From positions 620,001-684,000 of the forward strand of contig NZ_AZUP01000001.1 in assembly GCF_000527135.1 (NCBI RefSeq): DNA of 64,000 nucleotides, read 5' to 3'. The DNA comes from Methyloversatilis discipulorum (GTDB lineage: Bacteria; Pseudomonadota; Gammaproteobacteria; Burkholderiales; Rhodocyclaceae). Positions 3,497-17,091 of the stretch are shown here, one piece after another. Each line of letters begins with the position of its first letter. Position 1 is the stretch's first letter. A model generated the notes under the pieces. The model was not told where the DNA came from. It worked only from the letters and a program-made list of their open reading frames with translations, and did no database searches. A program made the position numbers and the translations under genes.

Positions 3497-4048
3497 ATGG
3501 CATCTCATCCTCATTTTTCAATGCAGGACGCGTCGGATTGGGTCGCGCGTTTCGGCGCACTGATCCCGCACGGCGCCGACGTGCTCGACCTGGCCTGCGG
3601 CGGTGGTCGCCATGCGCGCTGGCTGGCCGGGCGCGATCTGAACGTGCTGGCGGCCGACCGTGACGCCGCCGCGCTGGCGACGCTGGACGGGCAGCCGCGC
3701 ATCCGCACGCTGTGCGCCGACCTTGAGGAGGGCGACTGGCCGTGGGGCGAAGCCTGCTTCGATGCCGTGGTGGTGACCCGCTACCTGTTCCGGCCGCGGC
3801 TGAATCGAGTCGCCGCATTGCTCAAGCCCGGCGGCCTGCTGATCTACGAAACCTTCATGGACGGCAATGCGCGCTTCGGCAAGCCGTCGAACCCCGATTT
3901 CCTGCTGCGCCCGCACGAACTGCTGGATTGGGTGCGCGGCTGGGGCAGCGTGATCGCTTTCGAACAGGGCGAGATCGCCCGTCCGGTGCCAGCGATGATT
4001 CAGCGCATCTGCGCGGTGCGCTCGGACGTGCTGCCGGTGCTGAGCTGA
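3497..4048 (+). CDS. Class I SAM-dependent methyltransferase (TehB-like)
   Basis: A 183-residue soluble methyltransferase. The SAM-binding motif I is VLDLACGGGRHARWLAG at about residues 30-46, an acidic residue ends strand 2 (VLAADRD), and FDAVVVTRYLFRP plus LKPGGLLIYETFM give motifs IV and VI. It resembles small TehB-type/thiopurine-type methyltransferases that act on small molecules, but the substrate cannot be read from the sequence. AAGGG lies seven bases before the ATG. Its last 49 bp overlap the 3' end of convergent mnmH (stop at 4000), so the two genes share coding DNA on opposite strands. The neighbourhood has selenium-related genes, so an organo-selenium or tellurium role is possible but unproven. 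Confidence 0.8.
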   Translation: MASHPHFSMQDASDWVARFGALIPHGADVLDLACGGGRHARWLAGRDLNVLAADRDAAALATLDGQPRIRTLCADLEEGDWPWGEACFDAVVVTRYLFRPRLNRVAALLKPGGLLIYETFMDGNARFGKPSNPDFLLRPHELLDWVRGWGSVIAFEQGEIARPVPAMIQRICAVRSDVLPVLS

Positions 4049-5118
4049 GCGGCGGCGGCGGCGATCTGCCCGGCCAGACTATCGATGCCTGCATCGTCCA
4101 GCCGCTCGGCGGTGACGGTCGGGGCATCGGTGTGGCGGCTGAAGTTGTTCGACTGCGAGCGGCGGTACAGCGGGTCGTAGTGCTGTTCGAGCAGGCCCGC
4201 AACCAGCTCGGCCCACTGCCCGGCGCGCGCGAGTGCGGACCAGGTCGCCACAGTGTCGCGGCCGCGTAGCTCGATCAGACGCTCCAGCCGTTCGATCAGC
4301 GCTTCGGCGTCCTGCGTCATGTAGTCGTAGTCGCGCAGAAGGAATTCGGTGCGTGGCGCCGCCGGCACCTCGATGCGGATGCAGGGGGCGGCGCGCAACC
4401 GGTCGATCAGTGCGTCCGGCACGGTGACCAGCCCGATGCGGCGGCTTTCCGCCTCGGCGAACACCGGGCGCGCCGGGTCGAGTGCCGACAGCACGTGCAG
4501 CAGGCGCGACTCGAACAGTTTCTGCGGCGGCTGGTCGATGCCGGGCTGGCGGCCGAGTACCGAGCCCTTGTGCGCCGCCAGCGCCTCCAGGTCCAGCACC
4601 TGTTCGCCGCGTGCGGCCAGGCGTTCGAGCACGCGGCTCTTCGCGCTGCCGGTCGGGCCGCTGACCACGCGGAAATCGAAAGCGGCCGGCAGTGCCGCCA
4701 GCCGCGCCAGCACGTCGCGCCGATAGGCTTTGTAACCGCCTTCGAGCTGGTGGGCATCCCAGCCGACCTGGCGGAATATCGTGACGAAGGCGCCGCTGCG
4801 CTTGCCGCCGCGCCAGCAGTAGATCAGCGGCCGCCAGTCCGGCCCCTTGTCCTGGAAGCGTTCGAGCAGGTGACGGCCGATATTGATCGCCACCAGCGCC
4901 GCGCCGCGCCGCCGGGCGACGAAGGGCGACACCTGCTTGTACAGCGTACCGATCTCCGCCCGCTGTTCGTTGTCGAGCGCCGGGCAGTTGATGGCGCCCG
5001 GTACATGGTCGAGCGCGAATTCGGCCGGTGAGCGGGTGTCGATGATGGCGTCGAAGCCGTAGAGCTGGTCGACCTGGGCGATGCCGGCCGGGCGGCGCTG
5101 GCCGGAAGGGGCGTTCAT
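4000..5118 (-). CDS. mnmH: tRNA 2-selenouridine/geranyl-2-thiouridine synthase
   Basis: MnmH (SelU/YbbB) replaces the sulfur of 2-thiouridine at the wobble base of Lys, Glu and Gln tRNAs with selenium, using selenophosphate, through a geranylated intermediate. The 372-residue protein has the two expected parts: an N-terminal rhodanese domain with the catalytic YCWRGGKRSGA (Cys101), and a P-loop domain with VVSGPTGSAKSRVLERL near residue 155, then LDLEALAAHKGSVLG and FAEAESRRIG. The P-loop has Ala where a Gly is usual (GSAKS rather than GSGKS). The start at 5118 matches the family N-terminus; 42 upstream codons of the open frame were dropped. A selenophosphate synthetase (SelD) is required but none lies in the window. 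The 3' end overlaps the convergent methyltransferase gene by 49 bp. Confidence 0.93.
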   Translation of the reverse strand: MNAPSGQRRPAGIAQVDQLYGFDAIIDTRSPAEFALDHVPGAINCPALDNEQRAEIGTLYKQVSPFVARRRGAALVAINIGRHLLERFQDKGPDWRPLIYCWRGGKRSGAFVTIFRQVGWDAHQLEGGYKAYRRDVLARLAALPAAFDFRVVSGPTGSAKSRVLERLAARGEQVLDLEALAAHKGSVLGRQPGIDQPPQKLFESRLLHVLSALDPARPVFAEAESRRIGLVTVPDALIDRLRAAPCIRIEVPAAPRTEFLLRDYDYMTQDAEALIERLERLIELRGRDTVATWSALARAGQWAELVAGLLEQHYDPLYRRSQSNNFSRHTDAPTVTAERLDDAGIDSLAGQIAAAAAQLSTGSTSERTAQMR

Positions 5119-6596: not shown

Positions 6597-7694
6597 TCAG
6601 CCCGCGGCCGTCTCGCTGTCAGCCTGCGGATCGAAGCGGCGCACGAAGCCGCGGTCTATCACGTCCTTCCAGCGCCAGACCCAGTCACCCTTGAGCACCC
6701 AGCCGCCGCGCGCGGCGATGGCGTGGCGGCGGCCGCAGGCGAGGAGCATCAGCGCGTGCCGCTGCGCACGCCAGTCGAGCGGCGGCTGACCGGCCAGCAC
6801 GCGTGCGATGTTGGCGGCCAGCGGTGGTCCGGCGCGCACCGCGTAGACCCCCGACTTCGGCCGCGGCGATGCACTCAGCGTTGCGACGTCGCCGGCGGCG
6901 AACACCTCGGGGTGCGAGGTCGATTGCAGCGTGGCACCGACATCGACGAAGCCGCGCGCGTCCAGCGCCAGTCCGCTGCCCCGCAGCCAGGCCGGTGCTG
7001 CGGCGCCGGTGGCGAGCACGGTGAAATCGCTGGCGAGGGTGCGGCCGTCGTCCAGCCGGATGGCGTCCGCGTCGATCCGCGTGACGGCTGCGCCGGTGAC
7101 GACATCGATGTGCTGACGAGCGAGTTCGGCGCCGATGCTGCGCTGCAGCCGCTCTCCCAGTCCGCCGAGTGGCGTGGCGCCGCGCTCGATCAATGTGCAG
7201 TGCGCTGCGGGCCAGCGGTGGTGCAAGGCCATCACCACCTCGACGCCGGCCGCGCCGCCGCCCAGCACGCTGACGGCAGCCGGCGTCACGACTGCGCAGC
7301 GCGCGAGCAGGTCGGCGATCGGCTTCACCGGCTGCGCGTACTCGGCCGCGCCGGGAATGTCGGGGCGCTGCGGGGTCGAACCAGTGTCGATGGACAGCAG
7401 GTCGTAGTCGATCACTTCGCCGCCGGCCAGCGTGATCCGGCGGTGTGTGCCGTCGATGCCGATGGCGCGATCCAGCATGAGCTGGCAGCCGGCGCGTTCG
7501 GCCAGCGGGCGCAGGTCGATGCAGGCCTGACGCGCACCGTAGTGACCAGCCAGCACGCCGGGCAGCATGCCGGAGTAGGGCGTCAATGCCTCGGGCGTGA
7601 TCAGACGGATGTCGGCGTCCGGCCGCTGTCGGGCGAAGGCTTCGAGCACGAAGAGCTGGGCGTGGCCGCCGCCGAGCAGTACCAGCTTTGTCAT
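6597..7694 (-). CDS. FAD-dependent oxidoreductase of the SelD N-terminal domain type
   Basis: A 365-residue pyridine-nucleotide-disulfide-type flavoprotein. It has the FAD dinucleotide motif LVLLGGGHAQLFVLEAF at the N-terminus, the family-typical YSGMLPGVLAGHY near residue 41, a second nucleotide-binding motif SVLGGGAAGVEVVMAL around residue 143, and an FAD-closing VFAAGDVA. This subfamily (as I recall, TIGR03169) also occurs fused to the N-terminus of selenophosphate synthetase SelD; here it is free-standing and no SelD domain follows. It is the last gene of the eight-gene operon and overlaps the DUF3047 gene by 4 bp. An NDH-2-like or sulfide-quinone-reductase-like activity is possible, but the electron partner is unknown. 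Confidence 0.85.
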   Translation of the reverse strand: MTKLVLLGGGHAQLFVLEAFARQRPDADIRLITPEALTPYSGMLPGVLAGHYGARQACIDLRPLAERAGCQLMLDRAIGIDGTHRRITLAGGEVIDYDLLSIDTGSTPQRPDIPGAAEYAQPVKPIADLLARCAVVTPAAVSVLGGGAAGVEVVMALHHRWPAAHCTLIERGATPLGGLGERLQRSIGAELARQHIDVVTGAAVTRIDADAIRLDDGRTLASDFTVLATGAAAPAWLRGSGLALDARGFVDVGATLQSTSHPEVFAAGDVATLSASPRPKSGVYAVRAGPPLAANIARVLAGQPPLDWRAQRHALMLLACGRRHAIAARGGWVLKGDWVWRWKDVIDRGFVRRFDPQADSETAAG

Positions 7695-8422
7695 GGCAGC
7701 GGCTGGGCGTCGAGCGACAGGTCGCCGAAATGGCCGAGCGAACTGCCGGCGGTGTTGTCGGTGTCGGCCGCGACGACGACGCCGATCACCGGCGGAGCGT
7801 CCTCGCCGAAGGCTTCGCGGAAGTCGTCGCGCAGGTTGCGGCTGGCATTGCGCCAGACGCCGGTCGGCGCGCCGTCGCCCTCGACCGCGATCATGCGCAC
7901 GCGATCGGTGTAGGCGCTCCAGGCGCGCGTGCCCGCAGGCACGCGGTTGTCCCAGACGTAGCAGAGCACGGCGGCGGGCACCTGGTCGCCGTGCAGCGCG
8001 CGGGCGATGCGCAGCTTCGTGCGGGCTCCGAAGGGCAGCTTGGCGATGTCGTAGTCAAACAGCACATAGACGCGCAGCACGTAGTCGTCGCCGTCGCGAG
8101 TGGCGAAGCGGTTGCCGGCCGGCAGACGGTCGGCGCGCCAGCGCCAGTTCAGCCAGGGCGTTGCGGTGGTGTCGAAGCGGCCGGCGTGGATCAGCGCCGA
8201 CGCGGCATTGACGGCTTCGGCGCGCAGCACGGTCTGCCCGTCCAGCGCGCTCAGGCGGAAGTCGGCCGGTGCGGCCTTCCCACCCAGCGTCCACGGTGTC
8301 CAGCCGGCGATGGCGGCACCGGCTGACTGCGACGAAAAGCGCGGCAATGCGCTGTCCGCACACACCTCGCCGGCCAGCGCCAGCGCGGCCGCCCACAGCA
8401 GCAGGCGCAGACGGGTCAGCAT
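7691..8422 (-). CDS. Exported DUF3047 family protein
   Basis: A 243-residue protein of unknown function. The start at 8422 gives a clear signal peptide (MLTRLRLLLWAAALALAGEV, then CADSALP), so it is probably periplasmic; a lipoprotein is less likely because the box before Cys is GEVC. The mature part has the DUF3047 pattern: an aromatic-rich segment LNWRWRADRLPAGNRFATRDGDDY, then LCYVWDNRVPAGT and VVAADTDNTAGSS near the end, which suggests a jelly-roll or carbohydrate-binding-like fold, though that is a guess. It overlaps the upstream glycosyltransferase gene by 7 bp and the downstream flavoprotein gene by 4 bp, so it is translationally coupled to both. Confidence 0.8.
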   Translation of the reverse strand: MLTRLRLLLWAAALALAGEVCADSALPRFSSQSAGAAIAGWTPWTLGGKAAPADFRLSALDGQTVLRAEAVNAASALIHAGRFDTTATPWLNWRWRADRLPAGNRFATRDGDDYVLRVYVLFDYDIAKLPFGARTKLRIARALHGDQVPAAVLCYVWDNRVPAGTRAWSAYTDRVRMIAVEGDGAPTGVWRNASRNLRDDFREAFGEDAPPVIGVVVAADTDNTAGSSLGHFGDLSLDAQPLP

Positions 8423-9045
8423 GCGTCGCCCTCCAGCAGGCCTTCGCGCAGCGCGCGCTGCCAGTCGGCCGGGTGATCGACGTCGTAGCCGGTCGGCAGC
8501 ACGCTGGTGCGCAGGCCCAGCACGTCGAGGCGCGCGCGTGTCTGCGTCCATACCGAAGGGGTGCCCCAGATCGGGCCGTCGAACAGCGCCGGCTGCCGGC
8601 TGCGCAGCGCCACCAGCAGGTAGCCGCCGTCCTCGGCGGGCGCGAAGGCGGCGTCGTGGTCGCGCAGCGCAGCGGCGGCGGCCGCCAGATCGGCGGCCTG
8701 CAGCGACACCGCGTCGGCGCCGATCAGCACGACGCGCGCGTGCCGCGACAGTGCGTCGTCGAAGGCCTGCGCCATGCGCCGGCCGACGTCGCCTGCCGAC
8801 TGTGCATGCAGCGTGACCCCGAAGTCGCGCGCGCAGTCGGTAAAGAAGGGGTGACCGCAATCGGGTGCGCACCACAGCTCGACCGTGCCGATGCCGGCCT
8901 CGATCGCGGCGCGCAGCGCTCTCCTTGTCAGCGCTGCGCTGGCGCGCGCCGCGCCGTCGGCGCCGAGTGCTGGCATCAGCCGCGTCTTTGCAGCGCCCGG
9001 TACTGGCGCGCGGGCGAACACCAGTACCGCAGTCGACTCAGTCAT
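8416..9045 (-). CDS. TIGR04282-type arsenosugar-biosynthesis glycosyltransferase (DUF2064)
   Basis: A 209-residue nucleotidyl/glycosyl-transferase-fold protein. The N-terminus VLVFARAPVPGAAKTRLMP is the DUF2064 signature, related to MobA and CofC nucleotide-binding loops; later VVLIGADAVSLQAADLAAA and FAPAEDGGYLLVALR give the metal and donor-binding segments. Members are annotated as arsenosugar biosynthesis glycosyltransferases because they sit beside radical SAM ArsS genes, as here. Direct biochemical evidence for the family is thin, as far as I know. It overlaps the TIGR04283 partner upstream by 8 bp and the DUF3047 gene downstream by 7 bp. Confidence 0.87.
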   Translation of the reverse strand: MTESTAVLVFARAPVPGAAKTRLMPALGADGAARASAALTRRALRAAIEAGIGTVELWCAPDCGHPFFTDCARDFGVTLHAQSAGDVGRRMAQAFDDALSRHARVVLIGADAVSLQAADLAAAAAALRDHDAAFAPAEDGGYLLVALRSRQPALFDGPIWGTPSVWTQTRARLDVLGLRTSVLPTGYDVDHPADWQRALREGLLEGDAC

Positions 9046-9724
9046 GGTGCGGCCGATAGCTGCGTGCCAGCGCCTGCGGGTCGGCGCCGAAGAAGTAACG
9101 CAGGCGAAGGCGCCACATCAGCCACACAGTACGCAACACGCCATGCTTCTCCCAGCGGCGCCCCGAGGTGCGTACGCGTGCCCGCAGACAGGCTGGCGCA
9201 CTGAGGCTCAGTGCGCGGCGCGAGAAGTCGATGTCTTCCATCAGCGCGATCGGGGCGAAGCCGCCGAGGTGGTCGAACAGCGCACGCGTGCAGAAAATCG
9301 CCTGGTCGCCGGTGGCGATGCCGGACAGGCGCGAGCGCAGATTCATCATGAAGGCAACCACGCGCAGCAGCGGCGAGCGGCCTTCGATCGCGACGTCGAA
9401 GCGGCCCCACTGCGCGCCGCTGTCGAGCGCGTTGTCGATCAGCAAGGTCGCGCCGTCCGGCAGCGCGCTGTCGGCGTGCAGGAAGAGCAGCACCTCGCCG
9501 CGGGCACGCGCGGCGCCGGCATTCATCTGCAGCGCGCGCCCTCGCGACGACGCGACCAGCACGTCGCACAAGGGCCGCGCCAGCGCGCAGCTGTCGTCGC
9601 GGCTGCCGCCGTCGGCGACGATGATCTGCGCACCGGCCGCGCGCAGCGGCTGCAGCGCCTGCAGCGTCGCGACGATGCCCGGCGCCTCGTCCAGCACCGG
9701 CACGATGATGGACAGCCGGTTCAT
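9038..9724 (-). CDS. TIGR04283-type arsenosugar-biosynthesis glycosyltransferase (GT2)
   Basis: A 228-residue family 2 glycosyltransferase. It opens with LSIIVPVLDEAPGIVATL, then IIVADGGSRDDS (nucleotide-sugar binding), GEVLLFLHADSALPDG (DxD-like HAD motif) and FLHADS-to-ALMEDIDFSRR acceptor region with MEDIDF near residue 165. This compact form with LHAD and MED motifs is the type paired with TIGR04282 and ArsS genes. The start at 9724 creates a 4-bp overlap with the upstream flavoreductase gene; the longer open frame (to 9793) would run inside that gene and is rejected. It probably transfers a sugar to, or from, the product of the radical SAM enzyme. Confidence 0.88.
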   Translation of the reverse strand: MNRLSIIVPVLDEAPGIVATLQALQPLRAAGAQIIVADGGSRDDSCALARPLCDVLVASSRGRALQMNAGAARARGEVLLFLHADSALPDGATLLIDNALDSGAQWGRFDVAIEGRSPLLRVVAFMMNLRSRLSGIATGDQAIFCTRALFDHLGGFAPIALMEDIDFSRRALSLSAPACLRARVRTSGRRWEKHGVLRTVWLMWRLRLRYFFGADPQALARSYRPHHD

Positions 9725-11871
9725 CCGCGCATCCACGCGTGATAGCGGCCCACCCATTCGAGCAGCTTCTGCGGCGCGTGCGCGCGCTTCCACACGCCGG
9801 CGGCGTACTTGTTCGCCTCGTTCATGGTCGGGTAGATGTGTATCGTGCCGAGCAGCTTGTTCAGTCCCAGTCCGTGGCGCATCGCCAGCACGTATTCGGC
9901 GATCAGTTCGCCAGCGTGTTCGCCGACGATGGTGACGCCCAGTATGCGATCGCGCCCGGGCACCGTCAGCACCTTGACGAAGCCGTGCGCGGCTTCGTCG
10001 GCGATGGCGCGGTCGAGGTCGTCAAGCCCGTAGACGGTCGCTTCGAAGGGCACGCCCTTTTCGGCGGCTTCGCTTTCGTTGAGGCCGACGCGGGCGACCT
10101 CCGGTTCGGTGAAGGTGGCCCAGGGGACGACCGAGTAATCGACGCGGAAACGGCGGAAGCGGCCGAACAGCGCATTGACCGCCGCATACCAGGCCTGATG
10201 GGCCGCCATGTGCGTGAACTGGTAAGGACCGGTCACGTCGCCGCAGGCGTAGATGTTGGGATACAGCGTCTGCAGGTAGTCATTGGTGTCGACCGTGCGG
10301 TTCGGGCGCAGCGCGATGCCCAGTTCCTCCAGTCCGTAGCCGCTGACATTCGGCGTGCGGCCGACCGCGCACAGCAATGCGTCGAATGCCACGCGCACCT
10401 CGCCGGCCGCGCCTTCGGCGTACAGCACGCGCTCATCGCCTTCGACCGCGAAGCGTACCGCCTTGTGCCGGGTCAGCACCTGCACGCCGTCGGCGGCGAA
10501 CTGCTTCTCGACCAGCGCCGACACCTCGGGATCTTCGCGCAGCATCAGCCGCTCTGCCATCTCGACCTGGGTCACCGCGGCACCGAAGCGGGCGAAGGCC
10601 TGCGCCAGCTCGCACCCTATCGGCCCACCGCCCAGCACCAGCAGGCGTTGCGGCAGCGTGCGCAGCGACCATACGGTGTCCGAGGTCAGTACCTCCATCT
10701 CTTCGATGCCCGGTATCGGCGGCACGAAGGGGCGGGCGCCGGCGGCGATGACGATGTTGCGCGTGCTCAGCGTGCGCGCTCGGCCGTCTTCGCCATAGAC
10801 CTCGACCGTCCATGGCGAGGTGATGCGCGCATTGCCTTGAATGCAGTCGACGCCGAGCGCGTGGTAGCGCTCGACCGAGTCGTGCGGCTCTATCGTGCGT
10901 ACGACGCGGGCGACGCGCTCCATCACGTCGGCGAAATCGAAGTCCACCTGCGCCGACTTCATGCCCAGCGATTGCGCCTTCGCGGCCTGCGCGACGAAGC
11001 GCGCCGAGCGGATCAGTGCCTTCGACGGCACGCAGCCGGTATTCAGGCAGTCACCGCCCATGCGGTGCTTCTCGACCAGTGCCACGCTGGCCTTCACGGC
11101 GGCCGCGATGTAGGCCGTAACCAGCCCGGCACTGCCACCGCCGATCACCACCACGTTGTGGTCGAAGCGCGCCGGCTGCGGCCAGCGTTTGTAGACGGCA
11201 CGGGCGCGCACGACATCGATCAGCTTGCGCGCGATCAGCGGGAACAGGCCCAGCAGCACGAAGGCGCCGATCAGGCCGGGCGACAGGATGCCGGCGAGCG
11301 AGTCGATCTGCCCGAGCTGGGTGCCCGCATTCACGTACACCGCGGTGCCGGCCAGCATGCCGACCTGACTCACCCAGTAGAAGGTGCGTGCCGGCAGCCG
11401 GGTCAGTGCCATCGCCAGGTTGATGACGAAGAAGGGGAATGCGGGCACCAGACGCAGCGTGAACAGGTAAAGAGCGCCGTCGCGTTCGACGCCGCGGTTA
11501 ATCGCGTCGAGTGACTTGCCCACTTTGGCCTGTACCCAGTCACGCAGCAGGAAGCGCGCGATCAGGAAGGCGAGCAGGGCGCCCAGGCTGGAGGCGAAGG
11601 ACACCAGCGCGAGCGCCACCCAGAAGCCGAACAGCGCGCCGCCGGCCAGCGTCATCACCGCTGCGCCGGGCAGCGACAGCGCGGTGACGGCGACATAGAC
11701 CACGAAGTAGATTGCCGCCGCCGTCCATGGCGCTGCGGCGACGCGCTCGTTCAGCATCTGCTGCTGCGCCTTGAACCAGGCGAGATCGAAAAAGCGGCCG
11801 AGGTCGAACACGAAAAAGGCGCCGACCAGCGCGAGCAGTACCAGCAGCAGGGCCAGTTTGCGCGCGTTCAT
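9721..11871 (-). CDS. TVP38/TMEM64 membrane domain fused to mercuric-reductase-like flavoreductase
   Basis: A 716-residue two-domain protein. Residues about 1-235 are a TVP38/TMEM64 (DedA-like, VTT) membrane domain with several helices (for example YFVVYVAVTALSLPGAAVMT) and the SNARE-like motif region FGFWVALALVSFASSLG. From about residue 240 it is a class I pyridine-nucleotide-disulfide oxidoreductase: VVVIGGGSAGLVTAY, redox pair GGDCLNTGCVPSK, NADPH-binding VLGGGPIGCELAQAF, IYACGDVTG, and a C-terminal dimerisation domain with HIYPTMNE. It lacks an N-terminal heavy-metal domain and the C-terminal Cys pair of true MerA. The start at 11871 gives a 4-bp overlap with the phosphoesterase gene. 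A membrane-attached dithiol reductase for an oxidised sulfur, arsenic or selenium species is plausible; the substrate is unknown. Confidence 0.88.
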   Translation of the reverse strand: MNARKLALLLVLLALVGAFFVFDLGRFFDLAWFKAQQQMLNERVAAAPWTAAAIYFVVYVAVTALSLPGAAVMTLAGGALFGFWVALALVSFASSLGALLAFLIARFLLRDWVQAKVGKSLDAINRGVERDGALYLFTLRLVPAFPFFVINLAMALTRLPARTFYWVSQVGMLAGTAVYVNAGTQLGQIDSLAGILSPGLIGAFVLLGLFPLIARKLIDVVRARAVYKRWPQPARFDHNVVVIGGGSAGLVTAYIAAAVKASVALVEKHRMGGDCLNTGCVPSKALIRSARFVAQAAKAQSLGMKSAQVDFDFADVMERVARVVRTIEPHDSVERYHALGVDCIQGNARITSPWTVEVYGEDGRARTLSTRNIVIAAGARPFVPPIPGIEEMEVLTSDTVWSLRTLPQRLLVLGGGPIGCELAQAFARFGAAVTQVEMAERLMLREDPEVSALVEKQFAADGVQVLTRHKAVRFAVEGDERVLYAEGAAGEVRVAFDALLCAVGRTPNVSGYGLEELGIALRPNRTVDTNDYLQTLYPNIYACGDVTGPYQFTHMAAHQAWYAAVNALFGRFRRFRVDYSVVPWATFTEPEVARVGLNESEAAEKGVPFEATVYGLDDLDRAIADEAAHGFVKVLTVPGRDRILGVTIVGEHAGELIAEYVLAMRHGLGLNKLLGTIHIYPTMNEANKYAAGVWKRAHAPQKLLEWVGRYHAWMRG

Positions 11872-12815
11872 GGTGCGGCGTCGCGGGGTGTCCACTGCGG
11901 TCCGCGCAGGATGCGTTCGCGGTAGTTCAGCGCGGCGGGCGAAGCGGCCGGCCACTGATTGTCGAATTCGTCCAGCCAGCGGGCGTGGTCGTAATGCAGC
12001 GGCAAGGCGTCGATATGCACGCCACGGACGCGGGTGCCGTACAGAGGACTATGCGGCGACGGCGTGACGGCGATGCGCGATACGACGCCATGCAGCGCGC
12101 CGCGGAAGTTGGGCATGCCGGCGGCGCCGTTGTTGATCACTGCGCCCTCTCCGAAGCGCGCAAGCGCGGGCAGACAGGTGTGGCTGCAGGCGAACACGTC
12201 GCAGCGGGCGGCAGCGAAGGCCGCTTCGTGCGCTGCGCGCTGCGCCGGGTCGTGCAGCGCGCGCGCGTCGAAAGTCCAGCCGGCGAGCGCATGGGCGTCG
12301 CCGTGGACCACACCGACGCGTGCCTCGCCGACGCGCACCGCGCGCCAGTAATCGAGCGCCGCCAGTTCGCCGCGCCACATCGGGTCGTGGCGCACGGTCT
12401 GCGACAGCCGGGCGTGGATCAGATTCGAGCGGGTGACCACTGCTTCCGGCACCTCGTCCGGGTAGGCGCAGCCGCAACCGGCGTCGTCCGTGTCATCGGC
12501 CAGTTCGGCCTCGACATTGCCGGCGATTGCATCGAAGGCGAGCACGCGGCGCTGCACGTCGGCGAAGTGGGCGGCGTCGATGTCGAACCAGTGGAAGTCG
12601 CCGTTGAACAGCACGCGCACCGGGCCGCGCTCGCCTTCCAGCAGGCGGACGAGCGCGTCGAGCGCGGGGCGGTTGCCGTACAGGCCGCCGACCACGTACA
12701 GCGTGTCGGCCGCGAGGTCGTGCGCGGTACTGGCGAGTGCGCCTGCACCGTAACGGTAGTGCAGCGGGCAGCTGCGGCCGGGCCTGCTGTGCGCGATGTC
12801 GTCGTCCATAGTCAT
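11868..12815 (-). CDS. Metallophosphoesterase-like protein
   Basis: A 315-residue calcineurin-like phosphoesterase candidate. Motifs seen: LYVVGGLYGNRPALDALVRL (in place of the usual GDxHG, so degenerate), VLFNGDFHWFD (GD metal motif), AIAGNVEAELA (GNxE), VGVVHGDAHALAGW (HGD), and CDVFACSHTCLP (GH-type end changed to SH). Enough metal ligands remain for activity, but the first motif lacks the Asp and His pair in canonical form. The start at 12815 overlaps the symporter stop by 4 bp (ATGA). Similar proteins accompany the glycosyltransferase/ArsS genes; it might dephosphorylate a pathway intermediate. Confidence 0.78.
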   Translation of the reverse strand: MTMDDDIAHSRPGRSCPLHYRYGAGALASTAHDLAADTLYVVGGLYGNRPALDALVRLLEGERGPVRVLFNGDFHWFDIDAAHFADVQRRVLAFDAIAGNVEAELADDTDDAGCGCAYPDEVPEAVVTRSNLIHARLSQTVRHDPMWRGELAALDYWRAVRVGEARVGVVHGDAHALAGWTFDARALHDPAQRAAHEAAFAAARCDVFACSHTCLPALARFGEGAVINNGAAGMPNFRGALHGVVSRIAVTPSPHSPLYGTRVRGVHIDALPLHYDHARWLDEFDNQWPAASPAALNYRERILRGPQWTPRDAAP

Positions 12816-14206
12816 GGCGCCCGTCGTGTCAGCAGGGAAGGCAGCAGGTAGCCGGCCGTGCACAGCAGCAGCCCGTAAAGATTGACGCCGAGCAGCTTGG
12901 CGTACTTGCCGCTGCCGATGGCCCAGCTGTCCGGTATCAGATTGGCGGCAAGCAGCACGCCGAGGATCATGCCGGTCCAGAAGGCGAGATGGAAGGAGAG
13001 CGCGGCGGCGCGCGTGCCGGGCTGCGTGAAACCGGCCAGCAGGAAGATCGGCGCCAGCCCGATCACCATGGTGCCGCTGATCGTCGTCGCCTTCAGGATG
13101 TCGGTGCCGGCGATCATCGGAATGTTGCCGAGCAGCGCGATCGCCGCCATCGCCAGCATGCCGACGCCGATGGCGCGCACCGGCTCCGGGCGGCCGGCCA
13201 GTTGCGGCAGTTCCTGCGCGACGTGGCGGGCGACCGAAGAGAAGGTCGAGTCCAGCGTCGAACCGGCGGCCGCGACCATCACGATGGTCATCACGAACAG
13301 CGCCGCCGGTCCCATGCTGCGGGCGAGTGCCGCCGGCACGTTGTCGCCGCCGGCGATGCCTTCCAGCCGTGCGTGCACGCCGACCAGCGAAAACAGCAGG
13401 ATGCAGGCGAAGCCGAGCACGCCGGCCCAGACGAAGGCGCGCAGCATGCGGCGCTCGTCGGTGATGAAGCCACGGTCGGTCAGCACCGGGTCGTGGAAGG
13501 GGTATGACAGTACCTGCAGTGCGGCCACCAGCAGCAGGTCGACGCCGGCGTCGAGGCGCCAGTCGCCGGTCGACAGCAGCGTCGCCGGTCCGTGCGTCGG
13601 CAGCACCATCAGCATGACGACGGCGAAGAAGCCGACGAACAGCACGGTCTGCAGCACGTCGGTGTAGATGGAAGACCGCAGTCCACCCTTCAGGCTGTAG
13701 AACAGCGTGGCCGCGGTAAACAGCAGCGCCGCACCGATAAAACCGGCCGAACCCGCTTCGCCGTAGTAGCCACCAACCACCGAGGTGTTGCTCCACACTT
13801 CGTTGAACAGTCGAACGAGGATGGCCAGCGAAAAAGCCAGCGCCGCCAGACGGCCGTGACGGGTGATCAGGAAGGACAGCAGACCGGTCGCCGCATACCT
13901 GCGACGCAGCCGCAGGATGGCCCAGCCGGCGAGCGGGATGGACAGCCAGTAGGTGGCGTAGGCGAGGCCGCCGACGATGCCGTAGGTGGCGCCGAGGTTG
14001 GCCGCGTTGGTGATGGACTTGGCGAATATCCACGAAATGAAGATGCTGGCGCCGAGCGCCCATGTGGCAGCCGGGCGGCCCGCTTCGTCGTGGCCGCGGA
14101 AGAAGCCGGCGTGACCGACCGCGCGCGGCGACAGCGCGTACATGCCGGCGCCGTACAGGATGAGAAAGCCCCAGAAGGCGGCACCGAAAAGCAGCGGATC
14201 GTTCAT
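12812..14206 (-). CDS. Sodium:solute symporter family (SSS) transporter
   Basis: A 464-residue integral membrane protein with about 12-13 hydrophobic segments in the SSS/LeuT-fold pattern. Diagnostic pieces are GASIFISWIFAKSITNAAN near residue 52, LFYSLKGGLRSSIYTDVLQ around 180 (the SSS signature region, GGLxSxxxTDxxQ), and VMVAAAGSTLDSTFSSVARH around 310 with a likely Na2-site Ser/Thr. Its position directly after the radical SAM gene (10-bp gap) and overlap with the phosphoesterase gene imply uptake or export of a pathway substrate or product. The ligand cannot be inferred from the sequence; proline, pantothenate, sugars and organic acids are all carried by this family. Confidence 0.88.
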   Translation of the reverse strand: MNDPLLFGAAFWGFLILYGAGMYALSPRAVGHAGFFRGHDEAGRPAATWALGASIFISWIFAKSITNAANLGATYGIVGGLAYATYWLSIPLAGWAILRLRRRYAATGLLSFLITRHGRLAALAFSLAILVRLFNEVWSNTSVVGGYYGEAGSAGFIGAALLFTAATLFYSLKGGLRSSIYTDVLQTVLFVGFFAVVMLMVLPTHGPATLLSTGDWRLDAGVDLLLVAALQVLSYPFHDPVLTDRGFITDERRMLRAFVWAGVLGFACILLFSLVGVHARLEGIAGGDNVPAALARSMGPAALFVMTIVMVAAAGSTLDSTFSSVARHVAQELPQLAGRPEPVRAIGVGMLAMAAIALLGNIPMIAGTDILKATTISGTMVIGLAPIFLLAGFTQPGTRAAALSFHLAFWTGMILGVLLAANLIPDSWAIGSGKYAKLLGVNLYGLLLCTAGYLLPSLLTRRAP

Positions 14207-14216
14207 CGCGTCGACC

Positions 14217-15179
14217 TCAGTTCAGTGCGCCGCCACAGGACGAACCCTGTCCGGCGGTGCAGCCATAGCAGTGATCGGCCACCACCACCGGATTGCCGTC
14301 GAGGTCGCGCCCCAGCAGTTGCGACAGATGGGTGCGCGGCCGCCCCTCGACGCGCAGCGGCAGGCCCAGCATCTGGTTGAAATCGCAGTCGTAGACGTGG
14401 CCCTGCCAGTCCACGCTCAACTGGTTGCGGCACATCACGTGCTGAAGGTTGTCGTCGCGGTGGGCGCCGCGCAGCAGTTCCATGTAATCGGCGAACTGGC
14501 CTTTCGATACCAGCGTCGAGCCGAAGCGCTGGATCGGCATGTTGGCCAGCGTCAGCAGCCGGGTGAACACGATGCCGTACTCGCGGCCCAGATGCTCGCG
14601 ATACGCCGCTTCGAGCTGGGCTTGCGGCGGCGGCAGGGCAGGGCCTTGCGGGTTGAACACCAGATTCAGTTCGAGACCGCTGCCGGCACGGCCGTAGCCG
14701 AGCGCGTTCAGTTGCTTCAGTCCGGCGATGCTGCGCGCGAACACGCCATTGCCGCGCTGGCGGTCGACGTTATCCTCCAGGTAACAGGGCAGCGACGCGG
14801 TCACCTGCACGCCCTGTTCGGCCAGGAATGTCGCCAATCCCTCGTGGCCCGGTTCGGACAGGATGGTGAGGTTGCAGCGGTCCATCACCGCGACGCCGAG
14901 CGCGCGCGCCTCGGTAACCACGCTGCGGAAGTGCGGATTCATTTCCGGCGCGCCGCCGGTCAGATCGAGCTGACGGATGTCGCTGGCGCGGATGAAGTCG
15001 AGCACGGCGCGGATGTTCTCGGCGCTCATCTGTTCGGTGCGCGTCGGTCCGGCATTCACGTGACAGTGCAGGCAGCTCTGGTTGCAGGTGTAGCCCAGAT
15101 TGACCTGCAGCACTTCGGTGTGGCGCCGGCGCAGCGGCGGAAAATCGGTGCGGGACAGCAGCGGCAGGGTGGCGTGCAT
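14217..15179 (-). CDS. arsS: ArsS-like radical SAM protein with Cys-rich C-terminal domain
   Basis: A 320-residue radical SAM enzyme. The cluster motif CNQSCLHCHVNAGP (CxxxCxxC) lies near residue 33, followed by LDLTGGAPEMN. The C-terminal DUF3641-type domain has FNPQGPALPP, a Cys at HVMCRNQLSVDW, VYDCDFNQ, and ends CYGCTAGQGSSCGG. Many relatives are selenoproteins with selenocysteine in this last motif; this copy encodes Cys. Characterised ArsS joins a methylated arsenical to the 5'-deoxyadenosyl group on the way to arsenosugars. The ATG at 15179 has AGGA nine bases upstream and is preferred over one 14 codons earlier. It is the first gene of the eight-gene operon; no arsM methyltransferase is visible, so the real substrate remains open. 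Confidence 0.88.
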   Translation of the reverse strand: MHATLPLLSRTDFPPLRRRHTEVLQVNLGYTCNQSCLHCHVNAGPTRTEQMSAENIRAVLDFIRASDIRQLDLTGGAPEMNPHFRSVVTEARALGVAVMDRCNLTILSEPGHEGLATFLAEQGVQVTASLPCYLEDNVDRQRGNGVFARSIAGLKQLNALGYGRAGSGLELNLVFNPQGPALPPPQAQLEAAYREHLGREYGIVFTRLLTLANMPIQRFGSTLVSKGQFADYMELLRGAHRDDNLQHVMCRNQLSVDWQGHVYDCDFNQMLGLPLRVEGRPRTHLSQLLGRDLDGNPVVVADHCYGCTAGQGSSCGGALN

Positions 15180-16387: not shown

Positions 16388-16437
16388 GCGCCGCGATTTT
16401 GCAGGAATCCACTTCAACCCATAAGAAGAGAGACTCG

Positions 16438-16755
16438 ATGAGCGCCAGGACCCTTCTTGCTGTCGTAGCCGTCTGCGCCAGCCCGCTCGCCTTCGCTGCT
16501 GAGGGCAATGCCGACGCAGCCAAGGACAAGATTTCGATGTGCGTCGGCTGTCACGGCATTCCGGGCTACCAGACCGCATTCCCGAAGACCTACAAGGTGC
16601 CCCGCATCGGCGGTCAGTACCCGGAGTACATCGTGGCCGCGTTGCAGGCCTACAAGAACGGTGACCGCAAGCACCCGACGATGACCGGTATCGCTGCCAG
16701 CCTGACCGAGCAGGACATGGCCGACCTCGCCGCCTACTACGGCGCCCAGAAATAA
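16438..16755 (+). CDS. Small periplasmic c-type cytochrome (class I)
   Basis: A 105-residue secreted mono-haem cytochrome c. The signal peptide MSARTLLAVVAVCASPLAFA is followed by the haem-attachment site CVGCH and, 30 residues on, GGQYPEYI; the distal Met is probably in HPTMTGIA. It is of the cytochrome c553/c4-like kind that shuttles electrons to terminal oxidases or reductases. The start at 16438 gives a proper signal peptide and has a purine-rich site upstream; 13 earlier codons are not needed. It is followed after 12 bp by a second similar cytochrome, probably a tandem duplicate and co-transcribed. Confidence 0.9.
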   Translation: MSARTLLAVVAVCASPLAFAAEGNADAAKDKISMCVGCHGIPGYQTAFPKTYKVPRIGGQYPEYIVAALQAYKNGDRKHPTMTGIAASLTEQDMADLAAYYGAQK

Positions 16756-16767
16756 GGAACGCAGGCC

Positions 16768-17091
16768 ATGATGAAGAAATTCGCATTCGTTGCGCTCGCC
16801 GCCATGGTGGGCATGTCTGTCGCCCACGCCGGCGATGCCGCCAAGGGCAAGGAAAAGTCCGCTGCCTGCGCCGCCTGTCATGGTGCCGACGGCAACAGCC
16901 CGGCGCCGGCCTTCCCGCGCATCGGTGGTCAGCACGAGGACTACCTGCTGCAGGCGCTGCAGCAATACAAGAAGGGCACGCGCAAGAACGCCATCATGGC
17001 GGCTCAGGTCGGTGCGCTGAGCGACCAGGACATGGCCGATCTGGCCGCCTACTTCGCGTCGCAGGCCGGTCCGCTGGTCACCCGTCGCTGA
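16768..17091 (+). CDS. Small periplasmic c-type cytochrome (c553-like)
   Basis: A 107-residue secreted mono-haem cytochrome. Signal peptide MMKKFAFVALAAMVGMSVAHA, then haem site CAACHGADGN, IGGQHEDYLLQALQQYKKG and a distal Met in NAIMAAQ, ending with the typical DMADLAAYFASQ helix. The same last helix (DMADLAAYYGAQ) ends the preceding cytochrome, supporting tandem duplication. AAGGA upstream serves either of two adjacent ATGs. A strong terminator follows directly. Confidence 0.92.
   Translation: MMKKFAFVALAAMVGMSVAHAGDAAKGKEKSAACAACHGADGNSPAPAFPRIGGQHEDYLLQALQQYKKGTRKNAIMAAQVGALSDQDMADLAAYFASQAGPLVTRR

Follow-up and report, generated by a model that had tools for sequence, protein, structure and literature searches.

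What does an operon built around the radical SAM protein ArsS make when the methyltransferase ArsM is not encoded with it? This question is raised by a 64,000-nucleotide stretch of the Methyloversatilis discipulorum genome (contig NZ_AZUP01000001.1, positions 620,001 to 684,000; referred to as the window), in which eight abutting or overlapping genes run on the minus strand throughout, from position 15179 to position 6597. The first three encode an ArsS-like protein (320 amino acids; 14217..15179), an SSS/SSF-family sodium:solute symporter (464 amino acids; 12812..14206) and a phosphoesterase-like protein with a predicted calcineurin fold and no named family (11868..12809), here called PPE. 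An earlier inspection of the sequence, the original prediction, had described an ArsS operon without arsM that probably departs from the arsenosugar route as described, and this view is upheld by the present analysis. We found that PPE and ArsM belong to alternative gene modules that never share a locus among the ArsS loci examined. We tentatively favor a variant of the arsenosugar-type operon that works without ArsM: a phosphonate-like arsenical, perhaps dimethylarsinate, would be imported and take the place of in-house methylation. An organo-arsenic product is the better guess, rather than one containing a different element.

Alternative gene modules at ArsS loci

ArsS neighborhoods with and without arsM were compared in three samples. 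A class panel of 149 genomes, 79 of them with ArsS over the cut-off, provided 78 ArsS loci extending up to 9.5 kb to each side. From an order panel of 300 Burkholderiales genomes, 88 of them with ArsS, 46 ArsS loci from 45 PPE-less genomes were taken as a lineage control. Furthermore, a PPE scan of genome contigs matched 237 stretches, 179 of which encoded a relative, and the best 80 were kept as PPE loci. In the last two samples the PPE status is set by selection (by the PPE-less genome and by the presence of PPE, respectively), and the status of ArsM, SSS, PhnCDE and PiT is not set in this way. Incomplete assemblies are common among the genomes, and contig ends truncate many of the loci.

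Among the 179 ArsS loci, 33 contained ArsM, 55 contained PPE, none contained both and 91 contained neither. An SSS symporter or a PhnCDE-like importer was present in 35 of the 55 loci with PPE, in none of the 33 with ArsM and in none of the 91 with neither. A PHO4/PiT-type transporter, counted above 100 bits, was observed in 9 of the 33 loci with ArsM (seven order and two class loci, always with ArsM), in 0 of 55 with PPE and in 0 of 91 with neither; below this threshold, the ArsM-less locus L211 had a 57-bit PiT-like match, and weaker ones were seen in the ArsM-containing loci L087 and L082. Directly upstream of PPE, 31 of the 80 PPE loci had the SSS symporter and 14 a PhnC-PhnD-PhnE-like importer. 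Since the two never occur together beside PPE, they look interchangeable. The remaining 35 loci had neither directly upstream, some of them lying at contig ends or having Phn genes elsewhere in the locus. In the 78 class ArsS loci, SSS, PhnC, PhnD, PhnE and PPE were all absent, ArsM was found in 20 and ArsR in 12, and at the bit thresholds used the 80 PPE loci contained neither ArsM nor ArsR, two of them (L155 and L167) having ArsM-like matches of 53-62 bits. L058 (6758-7459, minus strand) and relatives encode an ArsR-type regulator whose C-terminal part is rhodanese-like; at 60 bits or more this regulator was matched in 12 of the 78 class ArsS loci and in 0 of the 80 PPE loci.

The lineage control gave 13 loci with ArsM among the 46. 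In 10 of these 13, ArsM lies on the same strand after ArsS, the VTT-flavoreductase, (DUF547), two glycosyltransferases and (DUF3047); L201 and L212 have it on the opposite strand, and L226 has it adjoining ArsS, the other genes being upstream. Where both ArsM and PPE are missing from an order ArsS locus, no candidate for a third replacement gene was conspicuous. The genome G348 harbors both kinds, with PiT-ArsS-ArsM on one contig and VTT-DUF547-ArsS-PPE and the two glycosyltransferases on another (L239 and L240), and thus offers a natural test pair. A DUF547 protein carrying what looks like a signal stretch (L173:6745-7578 and 15 other PPE loci), mostly located between the VTT-flavoreductase and TIGR04283, was found in 6 of 34 ArsS loci with ArsM, 17 of 56 with PPE and 12 of 92 with neither, and is not part of the window operon.

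The original prediction had placed the transporter, the membrane flavoreductase, the exported DUF3047 protein and the SelD-type flavoprotein (TIGR03169) outside the arsenosugar route. This holds for the transporter, which is distinctive. The other three are not foreign, as they also occur in ArsM-containing ArsS loci (the flavoreductase in 12, DUF3047 in 11 and TIGR03169 in 4 of 34), and do not serve as marks of another element. The distinctive parts of the window operon are the SSS symporter and PPE. A common set of genes (ArsS, VTT-flavoreductase, TIGR04283 and TIGR04282, often with DUF3047 and TIGR03169) is combined with one of two putative supply modules. The first is ArsM, sometimes with a PiT-type transporter of the PHO4 family; the second is PPE, to which an SSS symporter or an ATP-binding cassette (ABC) importer of the phosphonate/phosphite type, PhnCDE-like, is often added. 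The window has PPE and SSS.

The PPE family and its linkage to ArsS

PPE belongs to a large family for which neither Pfam nor NCBIfam has a named model. The window member scored 19.4 with Metallophos_2 (Pfam cut-off 27) and had no NCBIfam match. Among 57 members, PF12850 (Metallophos_2) matched 21 at E<=0.01, and NCBIfam yielded two single-member matches with E values of 0.004-0.007. The original prediction of a phosphoesterase is therefore not borne out at the level of the family score; it is supported by the AlphaFold model, which has a calcineurin fold with a predicted local distance difference test score of 96 and whose closest predicted-fold neighbors are SapH and PH1004-type phosphoesterases. 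In the protein database, at least 7,808 of the 7,996 scored candidates were matched at E<=1e-10, and among the 120 matches listed the name was "hypothetical protein" wherever the source gives one.

In an alignment of the window protein with those of 79 further loci (n=80; numbering according to window:11868-12797), Cys10, Cys108 and Cys110 are present in 80 sequences and Cys208 in 79, and there is no variation at Asn65-Gly-Asp67, Asn94, His165 and His206. GGLYGN is found as the first motif and SHTC as the last, at the positions of the canonical calcineurin-fold metal motifs GDxHG and GHxH. Compared with the canonical set, PPE would keep the ligands of one metal and have those of the other altered.

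PPE is tied to ArsS. At 45 bits or more, the 80 PPE loci contained ArsS (55), the VTT-flavoreductase (49), TIGR04283 (40), TIGR04282 (36), SSS (32), DUF3047 (28) and TIGR03169 (28). In 24 of the other 25 cases ArsS was located elsewhere in the genome (23 over the cut-off and one partial), so that it is present in the genomes of 79 of the 80 loci. In the order panel, PPE was found in 44 genomes, ArsS in 88 and both in 43; ArsS thus occurred in 43 of 44 genomes with PPE and in 45 of 256 without it (odds ratio ~200, p=4e-26). PPE is rare in the class panel (6 of 149 genomes, one with a 51-bit partial match). Of the five strong cases, G000 (the genome of the window), G055 and G138 have ArsS over the cut-off, G076 has a partial ArsS at a contig end and G051 has none.

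These features bear on an explanation in which inorganic arsenic is used unmethylated, or is methylated by an unrecognised methyltransferase, PPE acting downstream (a possible substrate being a sugar intermediate that is phosphorylated or linked to a nucleotide) and the transporter being an accessory. It is compatible with the 20 of 55 PPE- and ArsS-containing loci that have no importer nearby, with the presence among the nearest folds of PPE of SapH, which is an asymmetric Ap4A hydrolase and phosphodiesterase, and with the resemblance of TIGR04282 to the guanylyltransferase CofC. However, a downstream step would be expected together with ArsM as well, yet PPE and ArsM share no locus, and part of the metal ligands expected from the canonical motif appears to be missing in PPE. 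We consider this explanation possible but unlikely.

Distribution of ArsM

The original prediction had called for a genome search for arsM. None was found with two models, and a hidden ArsM in the window genome, which consists of one contig, was rejected as a candidate explanation. The ArsM model NF008823 gave no match at E<=1e-30 (15 of 20 candidates scored), and with A1, an alignment of long ArsM proteins encoded directly downstream of ArsS, the best E value was 3.2e-4 (all 23 candidates scored; threshold E<=1e-10).

In the class panel, ArsM was present in 53 of 79 genomes with ArsS compared with 13 of 70 without it (p=1.8e-9), which indicates that ArsS and arsenic methylation are associated in this class. 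All 29 class genomes with NF008823 over its cut-off are among the 66 A1-positive genomes. The frequency was much lower in the presence of PPE: omitting the window genome, ArsM was found in 53 of 78 class-panel ArsS genomes versus 8 of 50 genomes with PPE and ArsS (p=8e-9). In G055 and G138, both counted in the 78, PPE lies apart from ArsS; excluding these two genomes gives a proportion of 52 of 76 (p=7e-9). This search included 50 of the 55 PPE- and ArsS-containing loci, the five left out (L113, L115, L117, L128 and L154) comprising a very short contig and four loci closely related to the window. Within the order, ArsM was detected in 19 of 45 ArsS genomes without PPE and in 8 of 43 with it (p=0.021), compared with 15 of 212 genomes without ArsS. 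The class-panel effect is thus partly one of lineage, because the within-order effect is clearly weaker. As the number of candidates scored per genome was at most 13-15 in the class panel and 6-7 in the order panel, ArsM and PPE may be under-counted there.

Could this be nothing more than a common arsenosugar operon, its arsM having been lost or being located at another site? NCBI names the core genes as arsenosugar biosynthesis, and ArsM was not found in 26 of the 79 class-panel ArsS genomes at the threshold used, nor in 61 of 88 order ArsS genomes (6-7 candidates per genome). We nevertheless regard this as very unlikely, given the negative result with two models in a one-contig genome, the absence of ArsM from 42 of the 50 genomes with PPE and ArsS, and the recurrence of PPE loci without ArsM and of ArsM loci without PPE.

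ArsS proteins of the two kinds of operon

The radical SAM protein of the window is a solid member of TIGR04167/ArsS (453.7 bits, cut-off 300; PF04055 and PF12345; DUF3641 with 184 bits) with a Cys-rich C terminus, which excludes the weak homology that would have removed the basis of the original prediction. Its named closest relatives are Methyloversatilis proteins. The cluster residues Cys 32/36/39 are present in 133 of 133 aligned sequences, and the C-terminal Cys 304, 307 and 315 in 131-132 of 133. When the 55 PPE-linked and the 20 ArsM-linked sequences were compared, no conserved residue told them apart, and the largest column difference (0.75) was at a variable site. The chemistry of both kinds of ArsS is thus probably the same, as judged from these alignments. 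On the ArsS tree, 22 changes of the PPE label are required, at least 8 of them on supported branches, indicating that PPE was repeatedly gained or lost beside ArsS.

It may be argued that the product of PPE-type operons contains an element other than arsenic, ArsS adenosylating an imported phosphite-, phosphonate- or selenium-type oxyanion. The PhnCDE-like importer and the phosphoesterase fold point to phosphorus-like oxyanions, the PhnD-like protein matches TIGR04553 (putative selenate-binding) with 109 bits, below the cut-off of 250, and no arsenic-resistance gene was seen in the 80 PPE loci. Against this stand the similarity of both kinds of ArsS at all conserved sites, the glycosyltransferase and flavoreductase genes common to ArsM loci and the missing association of SelD with ArsS, so that such a product appears rather improbable. 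We are similarly doubtful of a distinct pathway forming carbon-element bonds, in which ArsS would adenosylate an imported non-arsenic oxyanion (e.g., of the phosphite or phosphonate type) and PPE would be the element-handling partner in the place of ArsM.

Organization of the window operon and its neighborhood

Coordinates and family scores confirmed the overlapping eight-gene operon on one strand. The gap between the stop codon of the radical SAM gene and the SSS start is 10 bases and that between the SSS stop and the PPE start is 2 bases, and there are overlaps of 4-8 bases at the starts of the five remaining genes, which makes co-translation likely. A promoter scan revealed no sigma70-like site. 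There is no arsR or arsenic pump among the eight genes; a genome-wide search for these was not made.

The symporter matches PF00474 weakly (32.4 bits, cut-off 22.8) and TIGR00813 below the cut-off (41.4 and 184 bits, respectively), and has a weak sequence match to SGLT1 structures in a PDB search. PPE is followed by a fusion of 716 amino acids (9721..11871, minus strand), composed of a VTT/TVP38 membrane domain (PF09335) and a MerA/lipoamide-dehydrogenase-like flavoreductase, the latter consisting of Pyr_redox_2 (PF07992) and a dimerisation domain (PF02852), all over the cut-off. Next on the same strand are the TIGR04283 glycosyltransferase (9038..9724; 263 bits, cut-off 182) and the TIGR04282 CofC-like transferase (DUF2064; 8416..9045; 181.9 bits, cut-off 134), families that are each found beside ArsS in 52 of the 78 class loci. 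The last two minus-strand genes encode a DUF3047 protein (7691..8422; 217.2 bits, cut-off 27) with an N-terminal signal-like stretch by eye and a beta-sandwich in its predicted model, and the stand-alone TIGR03169 (Nterm_to_SelD) flavoprotein (6597..7694; 382.8 bits, cut-off 310). PDB sequence searches with PPE, DUF3047 and ArsS returned nothing useful.

The same gene order, followed by TesA and MnmH, was found in seven PPE loci (L111-L115, L117 and L128), six of them from Methyloversatilis and one (L112) from a Gammaproteobacteria bacterium. Near the divergent neighbor of the operon, two small tandem open reading frames (16399-17091, plus strand) appear by eye to be c-type cytochrome-like (CxxCH). 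Outside the window, at G000:C1:1125433-1126158 (L001), there is a match to ovoA_Cterm (TIGR04345; 354 bits, cut-off 170), and the genome may accordingly encode the production of ovothiol.

Selenium metabolism

An organo-selenium product, the other possibility raised by the original prediction, is unsupported. The TIGR03169 protein is part of the operon and the tRNA 2-selenouridine synthase MnmH/SelU (4000..5118, minus strand; 490.5 bits, cut-off 266) is a neighbor further downstream that we do not count in it and that the original prediction had not listed; together the two could suggest a selenium-metabolite operon. MnmH is near the operon in just 7 of the 80 PPE loci, each of them closely related to the window, and TIGR03169 also occurs with ArsM, as reported above. 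The proposed search for selD did reveal the gene in the genome, yet at ~100 kb from the operon (G000:C1:738622). SelD was found in 36 of the 149 class genomes, namely in 20 of 79 with ArsS and 16 of 70 without it (p=0.85). The absence of co-occurrence and the distance of SelD led us to reject a selenium link; the rSAM_SeCys name, TIGR03169 and MnmH do not make a selenium pathway. In L091 of genome G104, which also has a TIGR03169-like match, ArsS and a SelD encoded within an open frame of 793 residues are ~4.4 kb apart, and no other ArsS-SelD pair of the class panel is closer. Although this pair could be counted in its favor, we find a selenium-metabolite operon hardly credible.

A possible route from an imported arsenical

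We infer the following route, including which element and which imported compound are involved, which way the transporter works, what PPE does and how each chemical step proceeds. An anionic phosphonate-like arsenical made by other organisms, such as dimethylarsinate or methylarsonate, would be imported and then reduced to As(III) by the flavoreductase and the TIGR03169 protein. PPE might handle or release the substrate via its putative Cys/metal site, and ArsS would attach the 5'-deoxyadenosyl group. The resulting arsenoribose could be activated by TIGR04282 and transferred by TIGR04283, and DUF3047 may bind the sugar-bearing product in the periplasm. A precedent for the import of methylarsenicals is provided by Pelagibacter, for which uptake and oxidation assays with [14C]dimethylarsenate and a 2-fold increase of phnD upon dimethylarsenate addition are described (PMC6426599).

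Several observations weigh against this route. A phosphoesterase-fold protein has no obvious job in plain dimethylarsinate import. No arsenic gene beyond ArsS and the glycosyltransferase set was seen in the 80 PPE loci at the bit thresholds used, so that arsenic itself is a presumed element here. ArsM is encoded somewhere in 8 of the 50 and 8 of the 43 genomes with PPE and ArsS, and PPE occurs without ArsS in G051 (PPE 426 bits), G389 and the genome of L186. The lack of SSS and PhnCDE near PPE in the 20 of 55 loci mentioned above belongs here too. On the ArsS tree, ArsM and PPE are both missing from the locus in 92 of 183 rows, and the two modules are thus not the whole story. In pairwise tests on supported branches the direction is consistent, but the signal is weak: PPE with a transporter gave 5.1 same and 0 opposite of 8 pairs (median p 0.06), and PPE with ArsM gave 0 same and 1.4 opposite, which was not significant and has no power.

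If the ArsM-independent variant exists, one kind of operon would make its product from inorganic arsenic, and the other kind would start from a substrate taken up from outside, either organic or an oxyanion. ArsS-like proteins are widespread, and the NCBI model calls them arsenosugar enzymes though many carriers show no ArsM. The two supply modules would explain many of these carriers in concrete terms, and provide a functional context for a large family of hypothetical proteins. ArsM-less organisms may draw on methylated arsenic from others, or the automatic name "arsenosugar" may be wrong for a large group.

Comparison with known systems

The window resembles arsenosugar biosynthesis by ArsM and ArsS in that ArsS, TIGR04283 and TIGR04282 are all over their curated cut-offs. 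It differs in that ArsM is found neither in the operon nor in the genome, PPE and SSS being present instead. Adenosylation by ArsS was studied by Cheng et al. 2021, as cited in PMC12159101. The sections of the open-licence literature covered here contain no account of a PPE-type or ArsM-less ArsS operon.

Five ArsM-containing ArsS operons of the order (L195, L199, L200, L207 and L208) share with it the succession ArsS, VTT-flavoreductase, (DUF547), TIGR04283, TIGR04282 and DUF3047. In these operons, in contrast, ArsM follows and PHO4/PiT is present in four of the five, and there is no PPE, SSS or PhnCDE. Compared with SapH/PH1004-type phosphoesterases, PPE has 14-17% identity, no PDB sequence match, four near-invariant Cys residues, and GGLYGN and SHTC in place of GDxHG and GHxH.

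The last gene of the operon belongs to TIGR03169, which we equate with the SelD-linked NADH oxidoreductase COG1252; in the window it is neither fused nor adjacent to SelD. According to PMC2432076, COG1252 is predicted to make the SelD substrate. Finally, PhnCDE phosphonate/phosphite importers have counterparts directly upstream of PPE in the 14 PPE loci with PhnC, PhnD and PhnE family matches. In the one of each that was scanned, PhnC and PhnD are below their equivalog cut-offs, PhnD is over that of TIGR01098, the phosphate/phosphite/phosphonate subfamily model, and PhnE is over its own, whereas in the window this place is occupied by the SSS symporter.

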